46,589 nt of DNA, taken from Planctomycetota bacterium. Its GTDB lineage: Bacteria > Planctomycetota > Phycisphaerae > Sedimentisphaerales > Anaerobacaceae. The stretch lies in the NCBI GenBank assembly GCA_022563885.1, contig JADFMM010000014.1, forward strand, positions 1 to 46,589, in the 5' to 3' direction. Below the pieces are notes generated by a model that did no database searches, had not been told where the DNA came from, and saw only the letters and a list, made by a program, of their open reading frames with translations. A program made the translations under genes and the position numbers. Shown piece after piece: positions 6,782 to 45,521 of the stretch. Position 1 is the stretch's first letter; the number at the start of each line of letters is the position of its first letter.

Positions 6782-7055
6782 AAGCCTCTTCTCCTGCTCT
6801 TACTGCACTTTTCTGCATGCGGAAGTCCAAGGTCTAATAATCCCTCGGTGGAAAAGACTGGTGTGGTGCGCGAGCCAAGATCGATACCCCTCTATGTCTG
6901 GTACGTCAGAGAAAGCCACTGGTCTCCAAAGATCTCCGCCCCACAGTATATGAAAGAAGACTCGACGAAATGTGAATTCTTTGGGTCGTGTTGCCGATAG
7001 GTAAGAATTGATTCTCAGCGCTATACTTTTTGAACCTGTGATTGTTAGGGTGGTT

Positions 7056-10000
7056 ATGAAAAACAGTTCTTATGACAGGCGTATCCGCAGGGTCGCTCTG
7101 CTGGCAATGGTGATGCTTCTTGCCGTTTGTCTCTCAGTGGTCGGTCAGAGCGAGGATTGGCAGACGATCCTTCCGTATGAAGCCGGCGACAGCTCTTACA
7201 ATGGCCCGGACAAGACCGGCGATTACGGCGAATCCGGGGATGGCAACAATGGCGACCTAGTCACGGACTCACAGGCTTCCCCAGAGAGCGATCGAGATGG
7301 GCAAAAACCGTCCACCCCTAAGCGCTTCGAGAACGACTCAGATGTCAACAGGGTCAAGGCTTCGGACTTGCCCCTAGAGATGCCGACCTGGTTCATCAAC
7401 GCATCGGCAGAGCAGTTGAATCCGCGGAGCCTGCTTAATGGGACGTTCGAGGAGTCGACCTATGCGACCCTGATCAAGTCCCTTGAAGATCGCAGGGACC
7501 ACGTGACGGGCGCGGCCACCGACGGCGCGACTCGCGTATGGGTCGTAGTTGAATGTCCCGGACCCGGTAAGCTAACCTACAGACTCGAGCGTGCCGAGGA
7601 TGGGGCTTTTAGTCGGCCAGAGATCTTTGACAATCGCTCGCGCACCGTTGAGGTTGAACTCTATGAGGACGCCGGGAGCAAAAGGCACTTCGGTTTCGTG
7701 CTCTATATCGTGCCGGACGCCTATGGTCCGCCCCAGACTTCACCCCGAGAACACCACAGAACGATCCCAGTCAATCTGAGGTGGGAAGCCGACTGGGCCC
7801 AGTTACCGAACGCCGAGCCTCGCGAGCAACAGGAGACATTCACGCTCGTGCGTCCCCCCGTGATCCTACAACATGGCATCTGCGACAACCCGGACGACTG
7901 TTGGCGGCAGTTTCCGCAAGAGACCTTGAGCGTGGGCGACTATCCGCGCGGTCACAAGGCCATGTACGAGGTGCTGATCGACGAGGGATTTTTGTTGCCC
8001 AATGGCAAGCCTGCGGTATTTACCGTTGGATACGAGAACGACAGGGTCGATGTGTCGCGGCGGGGCAAGTATACCTCCAGCGGCCTGCAGAGGTATGAGC
8101 GGACCGTGCGGGTCAATGGCGTCGATGTGGGGAGCAGCAGTTTCGTCAACCTCGCGCATGTGTTATGGGAGAACCCCGGAGGCATCCGGGATGCGCTGGC
8201 TGCCTACCGTGAGGCGGGTATTGCCGCCACTCGAGCGGACGTGATCTGCCACGGTATGGGGGGGCTCGTCGCCCGGCTCTACATCCGTGGCGCCCATCTC
8301 TACGAGCGAGGGGATCCCCAACGCTTCTACGAATTCCCCGATCCAAGCATGCCCATTGATCGGACCGTCTGGTATTATCGGGCCAATAACTTCATGCAGG
8401 GAGACGTTCACCGGCTCATCACGGTCTGTACCGCACACAAGGGAAGTGACGCGCCGGGGAGGATGCTACGCTACGCCTCCTTGGATGAGTCCGAGGGGAC
8501 AACGGGTGTCATTGGGCCCCGAGTCGGTGCAAGCATTCCCATCATTGGTGGGCGCGCGGAACGTGCTGATCCTGACGACATCGGACCGGTGGGGCGCAGC
8601 ATGGGGCAGGAAAGGGATCTGGTCGCGGCCTTCCACGACCAGCAGCCCAATAGTGCGGCCCTCCATGCGATCGGCGCGACGCCGGTCCCTGCTCACGCCA
8701 TTGCTGGTGTCTGTTTGGACGAAGACTTGGATTCCTTCGAAGGCTCTTATCGGGCCCGCTCGGGGAAGATGCACCTGCTCACGTCTAAAGACATCATCGA
8801 AAGGGCAGGGAGCAGCAGCGTTCATGGCGATGCCAGCTTTAAAACACTGCAGGCCTCGGGCGTGGAGGAGGACGCACCTCGCCCTACCAAGACTGCAGCC
8901 GCCTATTCCGACCTTGGCGTCATCGGCCAGGCGGATGATCTGGTCGATGGGACAACCCATAACACTTTGGGCATGTTTCGCTCGGTGGTCTTCGGTAACA
9001 CCGCCAACGACGGCGCCGTTCGATTGGAAAGCGCATTGGGTGGACTACAGCCTGACGTCGACGCCAGTGTGATTGACCACGTGCTGCATGGCTCCGCGAC
9101 GAGCCATCCTGAGGTTCAGACGCGGGTCCTGGAACTGTTGCGGGGCGGATTTGAAGAATTCAGTGTCGGGGGCTTTCCACGCGCGGGCGGAGTCACTAGG
9201 GGCATGCCCCGACCAGGGGAGAATTACCGGCCGCCCGCATCCAGGATCGCCATAGAGGACAAGCGACGCTCTGGCGCCGAGACCCATGCCGAAGCCGAGC
9301 CTGCCTTCACGGTCCACGTGTTGGGTAGCGACTACACCAACGTCCACGACGATGGGCGGCAGGCAAGACGCCGGGAGGGCCAAGAGGCAGCGGAACGCGT
9401 CTACCCTGGAGACGGCAGGGCACCCTATGAGCAGGGGGCCTCGAACGCTATATCCCAGAAGGCACCCGATCTCCCCGACCGAGCACATTGGGCCGCGGCG
9501 CGGCAACTGGCTGAGGGCACTGAGGGAGATTTCAACACAGGTCTCGCCGCCGAGCCGCTACGGGAGTCCTTTGACGGAGATATCGCCCCGCTCGAATTGG
9601 GCCTGCAGCTTGACACCGCCACTGCCGGCCGGCCCGTCGATTTTCCCCAGGGGCTTTTCGATGACGAGAATGCTAGTATCGGTAATGGCGATAGGGTCGA
9701 TGCAAGCAGCGACAGCCAGATCAATGATTCTCCGAGTGGACCGATCGATCTCGAGACTATCCACCTTAAGGAGGGCACGCCAATCGAGGTCACGAGCGGC
9801 AGCAGATGGGTTGACTTTGCCGATTGGTCTTTCGATGAGGCGAATGGTCGTATCGACAAGGGCATTCTGATCCGTACCGCCCGCGACAAGCAGATCGTTG
9901 ATTATCCCGATGGGCCCATTGATCACGACATCCCCCCGCTCGATGAGAGCCTGGCGATCGATGTCACGCCCGACAGCCGAACGATCGGAACGCCTCTGGG

Positions 10001-11546
10001 ACCCTTTGCTCACGAGGGCATCTCTTCCTTTAATGAGCAACCATGGACCGAAGCGCCGATCGATAATGAGCAACTATGGACCGAAGCGCCGACCGAGGGG
10101 CCGCCACAGGCGCTGCGCACCCTTGTCTATCATCAGCTCTTTGACAACGACGCCGATAGACTCGACAGGGCTGCTATCCACGGCCAACCGGTGCTCAGCG
10201 CCGACGGCACTCGGGCCGTTTTCTGCGGCAAGGGCGTCTATGTCATTGATCACGATGGCACCCACCTGCGTCGCGTCGGTGAAGCCGAAGCCAGTGTCGC
10301 CTACGCCGCGGACATCAGTCCCGATGGACAGTGGGTGGCCTTCTATGACAACCTGCGTGTATACGCGGCCCGGGCGGACGGCTCGGGGCCGGGCAAGCTG
10401 TTGGAATCCAGCTACGGCGCGTTCTACGGCCTGCGGATCTGTGGCAATCCGGCGACCCTCTTTCTGGTGTGCGCCAAGCCGGCCGAGGTCCGTACCAGCC
10501 CGGAAGCCCCTTGGGAATCCTTCGGTAACGGTATCTGGGCCATCGACCCCAACACGGGCAGCCGGCGTCACCTCGTCGACTTCGAGCTTATGGCCGAAGC
10601 AATCGGCGCCCCCAAGTATTCCACCCTTTCGGTCGCCAACCAGGGGGAGTTTGTCTTCGACGTCTCCGAAGATGGCAGACACCTGGTCTTCACGCTTCAC
10701 GCCAAGACCGACGGGTCGTCGAGGACTTACGGCTGGTCGGCGGAGGAAGGCACACGCGAACTCGTACGCGTTGAGGACAATATGATCGGTTCGCTGGCGA
10801 TCAGCGGGGACGGCAACACCGTTGCCCTTGTCACCCGCGGCAGCGACGGCGGTCTGTTTGCCATCGGATTCGATGGGTCCAACTTCCGTGAGGTCCTCAA
10901 AGCAAAAGACGCGCCTGCCCGCTTTACCGACCATCCGTCTTATACGCGGCTCAGTTACGATGGATCCTTCTTTCTCCACGGCAGGGATAACCTCCTGGTC
11001 CGGCTCAGCGACGGTCTGGCCCGCAACCTAGGCCCGTCCTGGGACTCCAGTATCAACACTGTTTTTGATGTCGGCATGTACCGGTTGGCCATGAACCGTG
11101 ATGCCACGCGTTTCGTTTTTATCAGCCGTCAAGCGTCCGGCCGTATGACACTCACTTCGCTGACGGCCAATCCGGGCGATGTAGGCCAAGCGCCACGCAT
11201 CACTGATGTGCGACTCGACCCGTTCGAGCTTGTCGCTGAGGAACCCGGCCCCAAGCTAAGCGCACGGGTATCAACCGACCTTCGCATCACTCATGCGCGC
11301 ACGCGGATCTTTGCTCGAGGGCGTTTGGACAAGGATGTCTCCTATCGCGACATGCGAGACGATGGCAGAGGCGGTGACACCAAGGCCGCCGATGGCATCT
11401 ACACCTTCGACAACCTGCTGCCCCGGAGCGACCGCAAGGATTGGAACGGCTCACGCGTCATTCGCGTTTTCATCCAGGGGTACGATGAACTGGACCTGGC
11501 CCACGCCACCGCGGTCGACTACGGACCGTGGCCGATAGCACCCTGA
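7056..11546 (+). CDS. Giant secreted protein: alpha/beta-hydrolase-like domain, 29-residue repeats, beta-propeller
   Basis: A protein of about 1496 residues. The ATG at 7056 is preferred over TTG 7008 because it begins a clear signal peptide (MKNSSYDRR then VALLAMVMLLAVCLSVV) and follows AGGGTGG. After an acidic linker comes a PGAP1/lipase-like domain (about residues 265-650) with PPVILQHGICDNPDDCWRQF and DVICHGMGGLVARLY. In this family the elbow is normally G-x-S-x-G, but the nucleophile position holds Gly400, so hydrolysis is doubtful. Residues 844-988 are five tandem 29-residue repeats. Residues from about 1020 to 1380 form a TolB/PD40-like propeller (LSADGTRAVF, ISPDGQWVAFY, VSEDGRHLVF, ISGDGNTVALV). 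The end (DDGRGGDTKAADGIYTF) matches choice-of-anchor X-type domains. A surface or periplasmic binding role is likely. Confidence 0.85.
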   Translation: MKNSSYDRRIRRVALLAMVMLLAVCLSVVGQSEDWQTILPYEAGDSSYNGPDKTGDYGESGDGNNGDLVTDSQASPESDRDGQKPSTPKRFENDSDVNRVKASDLPLEMPTWFINASAEQLNPRSLLNGTFEESTYATLIKSLEDRRDHVTGAATDGATRVWVVVECPGPGKLTYRLERAEDGAFSRPEIFDNRSRTVEVELYEDAGSKRHFGFVLYIVPDAYGPPQTSPREHHRTIPVNLRWEADWAQLPNAEPREQQETFTLVRPPVILQHGICDNPDDCWRQFPQETLSVGDYPRGHKAMYEVLIDEGFLLPNGKPAVFTVGYENDRVDVSRRGKYTSSGLQRYERTVRVNGVDVGSSSFVNLAHVLWENPGGIRDALAAYREAGIAATRADVICHGMGGLVARLYIRGAHLYERGDPQRFYEFPDPSMPIDRTVWYYRANNFMQGDVHRLITVCTAHKGSDAPGRMLRYASLDESEGTTGVIGPRVGASIPIIGGRAERADPDDIGPVGRSMGQERDLVAAFHDQQPNSAALHAIGATPVPAHAIAGVCLDEDLDSFEGSYRARSGKMHLLTSKDIIERAGSSSVHGDASFKTLQASGVEEDAPRPTKTAAAYSDLGVIGQADDLVDGTTHNTLGMFRSVVFGNTANDGAVRLESALGGLQPDVDASVIDHVLHGSATSHPEVQTRVLELLRGGFEEFSVGGFPRAGGVTRGMPRPGENYRPPASRIAIEDKRRSGAETHAEAEPAFTVHVLGSDYTNVHDDGRQARRREGQEAAERVYPGDGRAPYEQGASNAISQKAPDLPDRAHWAAARQLAEGTEGDFNTGLAAEPLRESFDGDIAPLELGLQLDTATAGRPVDFPQGLFDDENASIGNGDRVDASSDSQINDSPSGPIDLETIHLKEGTPIEVTSGSRWVDFADWSFDEANGRIDKGILIRTARDKQIVDYPDGPIDHDIPPLDESLAIDVTPDSRTIGTPLGPFAHEGISSFNEQPWTEAPIDNEQLWTEAPTEGPPQALRTLVYHQLFDNDADRLDRAAIHGQPVLSADGTRAVFCGKGVYVIDHDGTHLRRVGEAEASVAYAADISPDGQWVAFYDNLRVYAARADGSGPGKLLESSYGAFYGLRICGNPATLFLVCAKPAEVRTSPEAPWESFGNGIWAIDPNTGSRRHLVDFELMAEAIGAPKYSTLSVANQGEFVFDVSEDGRHLVFTLHAKTDGSSRTYGWSAEEGTRELVRVEDNMIGSLAISGDGNTVALVTRGSDGGLFAIGFDGSNFREVLKAKDAPARFTDHPSYTRLSYDGSFFLHGRDNLLVRLSDGLARNLGPSWDSSINTVFDVGMYRLAMNRDATRFVFISRQASGRMTLTSLTANPGDVGQAPRITDVRLDPFELVAEEPGPKLSARVSTDLRITHARTRIFARGRLDKDVSYRDMRDDGRGGDTKAADGIYTFDNLLPRSDRKDWNGSRVIRVFIQGYDELDLAHATAVDYGPWPIAP
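9585..10019 (+). repeat. Five tandem 87-bp (29-residue) coding repeats
   Basis: Within the giant secreted protein, residues 844-988 split into exactly five 29-residue units. Their ends read FPQGLFDDEN, SPSGPIDLET, FADWSFDEAN, YPDGPIDHDI and TPLGPFAHEG. Each unit has a hydrophobic position near 3, another near 8-9 followed by an acidic residue, S/D near 15, and a P-x-GP-x-D-type turn near 21-25. The DNA copies are well diverged, so the array is old and held by protein structure. Confidence 0.7.
10032..10097 (+). repeat. 33-bp tandem duplication inside the giant gene
   Basis: Two adjacent 33-base units differ at only three positions and encode NEQPWTEAPID and NEQLWTEAPTE. The units directly follow the 29-residue repeats and precede the propeller. 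The low divergence marks a recent slippage event. Confidence 0.8.
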
Positions 11547-11588: not shown

Positions 11589-11714
11589 CATATATGCACG
11601 GATGAGGATCTGTTTTTGCATGAGGCGATTCCCGGGCATCACTACCAGATCTCTCTGGCCCAAGAGAATGAGAACCTGCCCGGTTTCCGACGCATCTTGT
11701 GGTACAGCGCTTAG
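11589..11714 (+). pseudogene. Fragment of a DUF885 family protein
   Basis: In one frame (from 11598) the DNA encodes [20 protein letters not shown], then [18 protein letters not shown] and a stop. The HE-x-x-PGHH-x-Q signature followed by a segment like 'LPGFRR..WY' is the core of DUF885 proteins, which look like metallopeptidases. There the sequence should continue with an EGWALY-type segment; instead it meets the border of an inverted repeat at 11707 and stops. No start codon or N-terminal part is visible upstream. This is a stump of about 38 codons from a protein normally above 500 residues. Confidence 0.75.
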
Positions 11715-11902
11715 GGACCGGCAAGAAATAACTTGGACTTTTGAATGCCCAATTGCACCCCATCTTGGATCGCTTCTCAATCGCAAAATCCGCGACGTAG
11801 AACGGCTACGCCTGTGGTTTCGCTCAATCGGGCGCGACCCAATATGGGGCACACTTGGACCCCAAATTGTCCAACTTATTTCTTGCCGATCCCTTAATGC
11901 GC
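11707..11902. repeat. Dispersed repeat family B: inverted pair (palindromic element)
   Basis: The 32 bases at 11707-11738 are the near-perfect reverse complement of 11869-11902 (shared core TTATTTCTTGCCG with flanking GTCCAA and TCCCT). Weaker similarity, about 31 of 45 positions with no gap, extends inward, giving arms of about 77 bp around a 42-bp centre. A third copy lies at 28731-28855. The left edge coincides with the end of DUF885 homology, and the right arm supplies the first codons of the TPR reading frame. The element is therefore a likely cause of the truncation. Confidence 0.65.
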
Positions 11903-12967
11903 CGACACGGCGCCCCTTCGCAACGCGTCAAGGCCGTCGTCAACTTCATGCTCGCCTTCTATGGGGAAAAAGAACTCGTTACGACGGTCCGCCGCATCGC
12001 GCAGGAGGCCTGCGATCTTGGAGAAAGCGCCAGGTCCGATCACTACGCGCTGTTTGAACAGATTCTAAAATGCGGACCGAGTGACACCCTTCGCAATCAA
12101 ATCTTGCGAGAGACTCCTTCGGACTTTCTCACCGCACCGGATGCGCCCGTTTCGCTCAGAGGTGTACCGGCCGTGAAGCACGCGGAAGGCACTATCGAGA
12201 AAACCACCCAAGTAGACCTGCCTGAACAGACACATCTAGACTTGGAAGAGGCGAAGATGTTGTTCAACAAGGGGGTTGATCTGCATGAGCAGAAGGAATA
12301 TGCACAGGCCGTTTCGGCCTACGATGACCTTGTCATGCGGTTCGGAAAAGCAAAAGAGGCAGAAGTAAAAGAACCGGTGGCTATGGCGATCGTGCACAAA
12401 AGTAGTGCCCTCTTTGCACAGAAGAAATATCGTCAGGGGGCAAGAAGTTGGGAAGAGGCCGAACAGGCCGTTGACACCCTGCCGCAGGAAGCGTGGCTCA
12501 GGGACAGTCTTGCGTGGTGTGTATGCGAAAACCGCGTGTGGAAACTTCTGCCTAAGGCCAAAGGTCACGCCCGAAAGGCCGTCGCCATCGAGCCTGACGA
12601 TGGGCGCTGGCGCCATACCCTCGCCTCGCTTCTGTACCTCGCGGGAGATGGAGCTGAGTCGCTGAAAGAGGCGGAATTGTACCTGACGGACAGGAAGGCC
12701 GTCGAAAAGACGGTGGAAGACGCGATCGATCTGTTCGTGGGCCTCGCGGCCACCGGACACGGATCAGAGGGATTGCGCATCCTGCGAGACGCGCCGAGCG
12801 CGGATCTACTCGAACCGCTGGTGGTCGGACTGCGCCTCTACCTGGGCGAAGACGTGAAGGCCGCGGCGGAGATCACGGAGGTGGCCAAAGACGTGGTCCA
12901 ACGTATTGACGAGAGACGCGTCGAGCTGGATGGGAATGTCCCAGCGGGAGCCCAGCGACGTCCGTAG
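11855..12967 (+). CDS. TPR-repeat protein
   Basis: The frame holds up to 370 residues; the first 14 codons lie inside an inverted repeat, so the ATG at 11897 (MRRHGAPSQRVKAVV) is a better start, giving 356 residues. The central part has tetratricopeptide-like helices: AKMLFNKGVDLHEQKEYAQA, MAIVHKSSALFAQKKYRQGA, and a later pair around ARKAVAIEPDDGRWRHTLAS. The N-terminal 90 residues match no family I know. There is no signal peptide or membrane segment, so it is probably a cytoplasmic scaffold. The 5' end may have been remodelled by the repeat. No partner is evident nearby. Confidence 0.7.
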   Translation: MDPKLSNLFLADPLMRRHGAPSQRVKAVVNFMLAFYGEKELVTTVRRIAQEACDLGESARSDHYALFEQILKCGPSDTLRNQILRETPSDFLTAPDAPVSLRGVPAVKHAEGTIEKTTQVDLPEQTHLDLEEAKMLFNKGVDLHEQKEYAQAVSAYDDLVMRFGKAKEAEVKEPVAMAIVHKSSALFAQKKYRQGARSWEEAEQAVDTLPQEAWLRDSLAWCVCENRVWKLLPKAKGHARKAVAIEPDDGRWRHTLASLLYLAGDGAESLKEAELYLTDRKAVEKTVEDAIDLFVGLAATGHGSEGLRILRDAPSADLLEPLVVGLRLYLGEDVKAAAEITEVAKDVVQRIDERRVELDGNVPAGAQRRP

Positions 12968-26197: not shown

Positions 26198-26272
26198 ATG
26201 CACCATGCAGTTCAATACGGCACTAAGGAAACGGCCAAAAACGACCTGAAGTATGAGATGGAGAAGCGGTAA
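26198..26272 (+). CDS. Possible 24-residue small protein
   Basis: An ATG preceded by GAAGGGGGG (26181-26189) opens a 24-codon frame rich in charged residues (MHHAVQYGTKETAKNDLKYE...). It sits alone in the 460-bp gap between the pseudopilin-like gene and the DUF1501 remnant. Nothing else in the gap besides the tandem operator supports a gene. Evidence is limited to the ribosome binding site. Confidence 0.25.
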   Translation: MHHAVQYGTKETAKNDLKYEMEKR

Positions 26273-26397
26273 GTTACTGTTGTACGGGTCCTTACAGCCT
26301 CCGAGACCACCCCATACCGAATCTCGCGTACAGAGCCTGAAACCGAAACACCTCGTCTGCCCGCCGGCACAGAATCATCGTGTTCGATTACGCGATC

Positions 26398-28120: not shown

Positions 28121-28730
28121 CTTCTTTTCCTTTCTTAACCTACGTCCCTGTACTGCGAATATTGCGATACAAGGGTCGTCCTTAACTTTTCATCCAGACA
28201 CCGAGTCCGAACAATACTACGTTCTGGGTAACATACAACATATAAGTCCTATATTACCTTTACTTCGATAAAATATACAATTTTATTATCTCAAACATCT
28301 CATAATACCATGTTATTGTTATAAATTAAGGAATGATTACCAGTTATGACGATCATTATGGTTATCATATCTTTCACATTACCCAATAACTCAGTTTCTG
28401 CACGAAATTGGTGCTTTTTTCGGTATCCGAGAGTCGAGTTGGTAAGTCTCCAATGAAGTCAAATTGACACGAGGCCCCTTTCCAAAGATTCCTTTACAGA
28501 AGGAAGTGTGGGGTAAGTAGGTAATATGAGATGACTACCTGGAGCCAGGTTCTCGCCGAGATTCACCATGACTCCAATACCCTCTGTCTAATAGTTCCGA
28601 ACGGTTCTCGGAAGGGAAACTCGCAATGAATGCCGGAGCTGTCAAACTCTGTGAGTCCCCCGGCAGAGCCGAGGGTTTACCCCTTCCCCCCCCCGATTGA
28701 GACCTGTCGTCCATGGCAAGAGCGATGGAT
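28121..28730. other. AT-rich intergenic region
   Basis: About 600 bases without a supported gene. The part from 28190 to 28400 is clearly richer in A and T than the rest of the window (runs such as ATAAAATATACAATTTTATT) and contains several TATAAT-like boxes on both strands, fitting a promoter region for the small secreted protein. A hairpin CCCCGGC-aga-GCCGAGGG lies near 28657-28675, and a run of nine Cs at 28686-28694. Confidence 0.5.
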
Positions 28731-28855
28731 GAAGCGATCAAAGAGGGGGTGCAATTGGGCCTTGCAAGAGTCCAAGTTATTTCGTGGTTCTTTAATAACG
28801 CTGCTACCGCAGCCAGGATCGTACCACGGAAGTCGCTGTTTTCTTGCCGGTCCCC
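28731..28855 (+). repeat. Dispersed repeat family B, third copy with a 56-base insert
   Basis: GAAGCGATC, GGGGTGCAATTGGGC and GAGTCCAAGTTATTTC at 28731-28783 match the reverse complement of 11728-11780. The match resumes with TTTCTTGCCGGTCCC at 28840-28854 after about 56 bases that the other copies lack. The copy lies just beyond the 3' end of the GH27 gene. It encodes no supported protein. Confidence 0.6.
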
Positions 28856-42478: not shown

Positions 42479-42588
42479 CCCTGGCGATCACCTACTCTCG
42501 CCCTTACGGACTACCATCGGCCGAAACAAGCTTAGCTTCTGAGTTCGGAATGGGATCAGGCGTTTCCTTGTCCGTAAAATCACCAGAA
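42479..42588 (-). rRNA. rrf: 5S ribosomal RNA
   Basis: On the minus strand the sequence contains the conserved CCCATTCCGAACTCAGAAG and CGATGGTAGT...GAGAGTAGG elements of 5S rRNA. TCTGGTGA at the 5' end pairs with TCGCCAGG at the 3' end as helix I. It is about 110 nt, the usual size; the ends are accurate to a few bases. Confidence 0.93.
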
Positions 42589-42730
42589 AAACTGTGAACC
42601 AGGCAAAAAGCCTGTAATTCTCACATCCAATACAGTCCGACGTGCACCAGTTCTAAGCTGCCGCCATCGAACCTTGAAGAATATAGAAAATATGCAGATG
42701 CTTCAAGAGCAGCTCAACCAAAGATAGATA

Positions 42731-45521
<2,791 letters not shown>

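Follow-up and report, generated by a model that had tools for sequence, protein, structure and literature searches.

A mobile 180-bp hairpin MITE of Planctomycetota with ISAzo13-like ends and a conserved core

RUP of Streptococcus pneumoniae is a small non-coding repeat of about 100 copies that shares its ends with IS630-Spn1, its presumed mover in trans, and the abundant Correia/NEMIS MITE of Neisseria has terminal repeats, a long RNA hairpin, and long as well as short forms (PMC2229807). The element described here lies in a 46,589-nt stretch of planctomycete DNA, the whole of which is referred to as the window. Like RUP, it is small, non-coding and multicopy, with ends like those of an IS. 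However, RUP measures 107 bp, has ends of 9 bp and targets TA, whereas the window element is 180 bp long, forms a hairpin over its full length, uses a TNA target, and has ISAzo13-type ends and phylum-wide relatives. Abundance, terminal repeats, a hairpin and long and short forms are common to Correia/NEMIS and the window element, but Correia/NEMIS has a TA target, has no ISAzo13 link and is found in one genus only; to our knowledge, exchange of ends is not known for it. Insertion sequences of the ISAzo13 type ('Rhodopirellula transposase', PF07592) share with the window element GG...CC ends, AATAA at positions 14-18, the C-TWA-G target and a 3-bp duplication; the window element differs in being 180 bp long and without a transposase gene. 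REP/BIME sequences with RAYT are likewise abundant extragenic palindromes, but they are much shorter, lack a target duplication and involve Y1 chemistry. A literature search found no ISAzo13 MITE and no planctomycete MITE like that of the window. New in this element are the partner family, as judged from that search, the hairpin that is constant throughout the phylum, and the changing ends.

The window element and its copies

The sequence-only reading of this DNA had described 77-bp arms in inverted orientation at 11707-11902. The inverted repeat is present, but this range is slightly too wide and the arms make up a single imperfect 180-nt hairpin that folds end to end (Table 1). Arms at 11713-11773 and 11834-11894 are 77% complementary without gaps. 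The folding energy of 11707-11902 is -86.1 kcal/mol as against -50.7 ± 4.0 for shuffled sequences (z -8.9, none of 200 as good), in keeping with the long hairpin proposed earlier. TTA stands directly on either side as a 3-bp duplication. As had been noted, the element has no coding capacity and no transposase gene, and its inverted repeat spans the whole length, as in a MITE. The copy starts 167 bp past the stop of the ORF at 7008-11546, and an ATG at 11897, in frame with the ORF at 11855-12967, immediately follows it; the neighbouring gene encodes S-adenosylhomocysteinase, at 99% identity to the closest named record, JADFHU010000487.1 (isolate B36T1B5), and the genome is metagenome-assembled. 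No Rfam 15 family matched the element above its gathering score, such matches in the window being to 5S and 23S rRNA only. The 23S and 5S rRNA genes lie at 42479-45511 (-).

Table 1. Coordinates of the hairpin element, of related fragments and of the 'family C' repeat (positions in the window unless a locus is named)
Feature	Position	Strand	Basis
Complete hairpin MITE, 180 bp, subfamily E	11714-11893	+	Inverted repeat, fold, full-length copies
Target-site duplication TTA, left copy, 3 bp	11711-11713	.	Sequence; rule from genome-wide copies
Target-site duplication TTA, right copy, 3 bp	11894-11896	.	Sequence; rule from genome-wide copies
Left terminal inverted repeat GGGACCGGCAAGAAATAACTTGGACT; AATAA at element positions 14-18	11714-11739	+	Retained in 58-78 nt deletion derivatives; ISAzo13-family terminus layout
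Right terminal inverted repeat, reading inward GGGATCGGCAAGAAATAAGTTGGACA	11868-11893	-	Retained in deletion derivatives; ISAzo13-like layout
Conserved core CTCAATCG..AAATCCNC.ACGTAG....CTACG..TGTGGTTTCGCTCAATCG	11776-11830	+	Common phylum-wide to elements with other ends
Left-end fragment of a second subfamily, TAA-GGACCCGTACAACAGTAACTTACCGCTTCTCCATCTCA...	about 26230-26291	-	
Truncated copy of the window element (third copy), left part only, interrupted by a small repeat	about 28722-28854	-	
'Family C' repeat, 56 nt, inserted after GAAA within the truncated copy	28784-28839	-	
'Family C' inside MITEs	L016:392-447, L021:1941-1992, L030:2589-2643, L059:4138-4193, L063:10-67		
'Family C' inside MITEs, further loci	L069:3958-4015, L077:2945-3002, L049:3893-3950		

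The third copy of the sequence-only reading was located on the minus strand, but it is not intact: it breaks off at about 70 nt, and a 56-nt insert interrupts it. This insert belongs to a repeat of about 56-58 nt ('family C') that forms a hairpin with GGCTGCGATAGCAGC. Within MITEs it always follows GAAA and occupies two different positions, one in the arm and one in the core. Two to three copies lie outside MITEs, at L016:1207 and L059:4953 (perhaps a single genomic copy) and at L244:2188. 'Family C' looks like a small element with a preference for landing in another small element.

The view that the element is abundant genome-wide, which hinged on the existence of further copies, was borne out by a genome-wide search. 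Allowing one mismatch at most, the arm core CAAGAAATAACTTGGAC has 331 sites in the 6.5-Mb genome that carries the window (G000), and the reversed control pattern has none. Since there are 1.67 core sites per sampled copy, the genome holds roughly 200 elements. The best 40 full-length copies are 95-99% identical to the window copy, and mean pairwise identity among 50 full-length 180-nt copies is 95.1%. A comparable number is present in the sister species G001 (415 first-look candidates). The element was absent from the phages and plasmids searched, and nine short matches to the core pattern in viral contigs are chance matches, none supported by the covariance model. A number of contigs end within or beside copies, and the elements may explain fragmented planctomycete assemblies.

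Copies are biased to intergenic places. Only 7 of 49 sites lie within ORFs of 200 aa or more, compared with 27 expected for random positions in the same flanks. The placement next to gene ends that had been claimed earlier amounts to avoidance of coding sequence and not to stop-codon targeting: exact insertion at a stop codon was seen in 3 of 49 cases, no excess over the TTA/TAA triplet supply of 37 in 761. At L053:2362-2901, the C-terminal tail of an ORF comes from a hairpin element of a different subfamily, into which the reading frame continues.

Mobility and target-site duplication

An identical triplet is found on both flanks in 51 of 70 copies, whereas 20.6 would be expected from shuffled partners; no duplication of 4 bp or longer was found among the 70. 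The duplicated triplets include rare ones (TTT, AAA, TAG, TGA, AAT). A 2-bp duplication of TA only was considered for the window's element and dropped, since non-TA triplets (TTT, TGA, AAT) are duplicated too. The target consensus is C-T(A/T)A-G (C-TWA-G), and 35 of 47 other copies, spanning subfamilies and genera with different ends, are likewise duplicated.

The joined flanks of twelve copies were searched in the sister species for empty sites. The site of one copy (L015 in G000, L253 in G001) is empty and base-perfect in G001 with a single TAG, and its flanks are 98.6-100% identical; GGTTAG-(180 bp)-TAG-ATC in G000 reads GGTTAGATC in G001. A second empty site (L003/L255) has flanks of about 90% identity. 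The L017 site in G001 is also without the element, with a few bases differing at the junction, and the L186 and L014 sites are occupied in both genomes. Several sites carry forms with internal deletions, 58, 66 and 77-78 nt long, and most of these are flanked by duplications. As these short forms without the middle also carry target duplications, the ends suffice for movement. The window element is a real, mobile and abundant MITE; its mobility, target, duplication, copy number and conserved pairing (see below) are all shown.

One older element from a different subfamily (L030:1317-1547) is cut off at the exact point where a window-type copy inserted; the rest of it is absent, so a deletion may have accompanied the insertion.

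The sequence-only reading had hinted at a REP/BIME-like palindrome whose mover would be a REP-associated Y1 transposase (RAYT). The element is indeed abundant, extragenic and palindromic, and there are 19 Y1_Tnp matches in its own genome. However, the 3-bp target duplication and the exact empty site contradict movement of this kind, and the element, at 180 bp, far exceeds the 20-40 bp given for REPs (PMC3733652). Instead of a 20-40 bp palindrome with a GTAG or CGTC tag at one end, it has GG...CC ends, which match ISAzo13 and not a Y1 transposase. When the REP-associated transposase gene proposed earlier was looked for, a hairpin element lay within the locus at only 3 of the 19 Y1 loci and a flanking pair at none, and Y1 transposases were discarded as movers. 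Such an origin is extremely improbable, and REP/RAYT membership is rejected.

The candidate transposase

The element is a 180-bp non-autonomous MITE that is very probably moved in trans by an ISAzo13-type DDE transposase. A DDE transposase (PF07592) from a separate IS with like ends (GG tip, AATAA at 14-18) would recognise both ends in trans and would insert the element into C-TWA-G sites, generating the 3-bp duplication. The window element does not encode a PF07592 transposase, and is a dependent element and not a member of the IS family. Duplications of 3 bp have been reported for ISAzo13 (PMC10045372), and the window's element has one of this length.

PF07592 was found in 13 of 89 genomes of the family. 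ISAzo13-family termini have a TNA-GG tip, AATAA at positions 14-18, GG...CC ends and a C-TWA-G target. The one intact ISAzo13 element in the window's own genome reads TAA-GGCCCTGTAAAACAATAACTAATG ... CTTTTACAGCTCC-TAA, its right end being alternatively written GTGTTTATTCTTTTACAGCTCC-TAA; it differs from the MITE at end positions 3-12. A weight matrix built from MITE ends alone was run over the PF07592 loci, with windows from loci of other transposases as controls. Scores were 12.3-28 at clear ISAzo13 termini and 9.5-11 at a few degenerate ones, and nearly all top matches were IS termini with TAA or TTA just before them. At most one of the control windows (n=125,206) scores 12.3 or more and none reaches 13.6. 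Matching triplets stand at both ends of three IS copies (L273, L276, L279).

End pairs agree at 28 of 34 positions between the MITE of G127 and the IS of G125, and at 27 of 34 between a G000 MITE (L060) and the IS of G001. The best end partner of the window's own subfamily is an IS of another genus (G024) with 24 of 34 positions, a value that some skeleton-bearing background reaches too and that would not convince by itself. No IS with the exact ends GGGACCGGCAAGAAATAACTTGGAC of this subfamily was found among the PF07592 loci of the 89 genomes. PF07592 is present in 4 of 8 MITE-bearing genomes versus 9 of 81 others (Fisher p 0.014); the 4 MITE-bearing genomes without the gene are all draft assemblies. 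At the level of sequence, the MITE ends are similar to those of ISAzo13 elements; actual movement by an ISAzo13 transposase, and by which one, is what we infer.

IS1031-type elements use TNA targets, which would fit a MITE belonging to a different DDE family that makes short duplications (IS5/IS1031 type). However, the own genome holds no PF13586 match, none of its 8 PF01609 loci has matching ends, and ISAzo13 termini do match the MITE ends. This assignment is highly unlikely, and PF01609 and PF13586 transposases were both set aside as movers. An autonomous copy was sought between solo arms (L044, L053, L061), and only ordinary genes were found there.

Two further observations concern ISAzo13 elements. 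In G001 (L278:2465-2648), a window-type MITE is inserted exactly at the ISAzo13 target triplet, back to back with the IS end. A multicopy ISAzo13 element of G058, TNA-GGACTTGTAAATAAATAACCTTTCATTCTTG, gave 16 matches, mostly right ends at contig edges (e.g. L286, L291, L296, L299, L301).

Conserved pairing and a core with changing ends

Pairing was assessed in an alignment of 13 sequences (subfamilies from G000, G002 and G028) with 48 pairs. Pairing holds in 91.3% of alignment cells and 30 of the 48 pairs have changed on both sides, values that none of 500 shuffles reaches; when the partner is slid by one column, pairing falls to 34-39%. Lack of conserved pairing between the arms had been named beforehand as a point that would tell against the element, and this modelling found the pairing conserved. 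With a covariance model made from this alignment, the element is detected in 8 of the family's 89 genomes (5 of 45 genera) and, among 392 genomes sampled across the phylum Planctomycetota, in 14 more, which belong to at least 10 families. Full-length members measure 176-183 nt, 180 being commonest; the weakest matches across the phylum, those in G169, G477, G249 and G422, have a shorter or irregular form and carry less certainty.

Such conservation could reflect a structured RNA family (riboregulator, terminator or RNase III substrate) acting in the transcripts of neighbouring genes, with mobility secondary. Its core sequence and unpaired TCAATC motifs are kept phylum-wide, and the compensatory changes and the intergenic bias would suit such a role, as would one T.G pair at core columns 78/107 of alignment A1, retained in 33 of 36 diverse sequences though A-T or C-G pairs better. 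Against this, sites are polymorphic between sister species, occurrence is patchy even within the family, short forms lacking the core move as well, and no Rfam family matches. The subfamily E copies show 17 A.C and 16 G.T distinct departures at paired positions; since the two are nearly equal, nothing here points to selection on one RNA strand. Among the diverse sequences, on the window strand and with the one conserved T.G pair set aside, A.C exceeds G.T (106 to 45, cells not being independent), which if anything points to the other strand and is only a lead. An RNA role of this kind is rather unlikely, and the data are sufficiently accounted for if pairing is maintained in the DNA, through paired ends and through copying of one arm from the other.

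MITEs are usually viewed as remnants of a single transposon in which the ends stay conserved and the middle drifts. The order is reversed here: the middle is kept over the phylum, the length stays near 180 nt, and the ends change in pairs, matching different transposase specificities. Conservation peaks mid-element, at a mean of 1.17 bits per column versus 0.88 and 0.79 in the outer parts. The tips vary between subfamilies, yet the two tips of one element always match, and AATAA (14-18) is constant. An origin by internal deletion leaves the stronger conservation of the core unexplained, a point against the explanation of the element as a MITE moved by an ISAzo13-type transposase.

Some copies in G463, G441 and G472 have C(C/T)C...G(G/A)G ends flanked by TA, with a TA target; in G463 and G441 these ends are TACCCATCACGAATTGG. 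G463 and G472 also hold copies with GG...CC ends and TNA. The cores of TA-ended and TNA-ended forms are alike, with alignment scores of 54 and 59 against the window's family as compared with 13 ± 2 for shuffles; some other pairs are weaker. The simplest reading of these sequences is that one hairpin core has probably been combined with the ends of different transposases. The core, present with several kinds of ends, is probably kept by selection and not by chance descent. Tentatively, and with doubt still on the heavier side, the core could be a selfish module that repeatedly adopts the ends of unrelated transposases (ISAzo13-type TNA of many specificities, and TA-target), outlives each of them, and has spread phylum-wide at near-180 nt. 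If so, the core itself would serve a function, e.g. to shield the element from host nucleases, to bind a host factor, or to render insertions harmless to the transcript. It would also argue that a change of transposase is possible for a non-coding element, and would supply many natural ISAzo13 end pairs for reading the recognition code of a little-studied transposase family.

The TA-ended relatives of G463, G441 and G472 were compared with IS630/Tc1-type elements. TA flanks are present; the ends of the PF13358 elements in G463 are different, and the PF13358 transposases of G463, G441, G472, G492 and G496 were rejected as partners because their ends differ, so that this search yielded no transposase for the TA-ended kind. 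G463 contains at least three near-identical IS630-type elements (L334, L337, L341), with ends TTAACCCGGCAATTAAATA beside TA.
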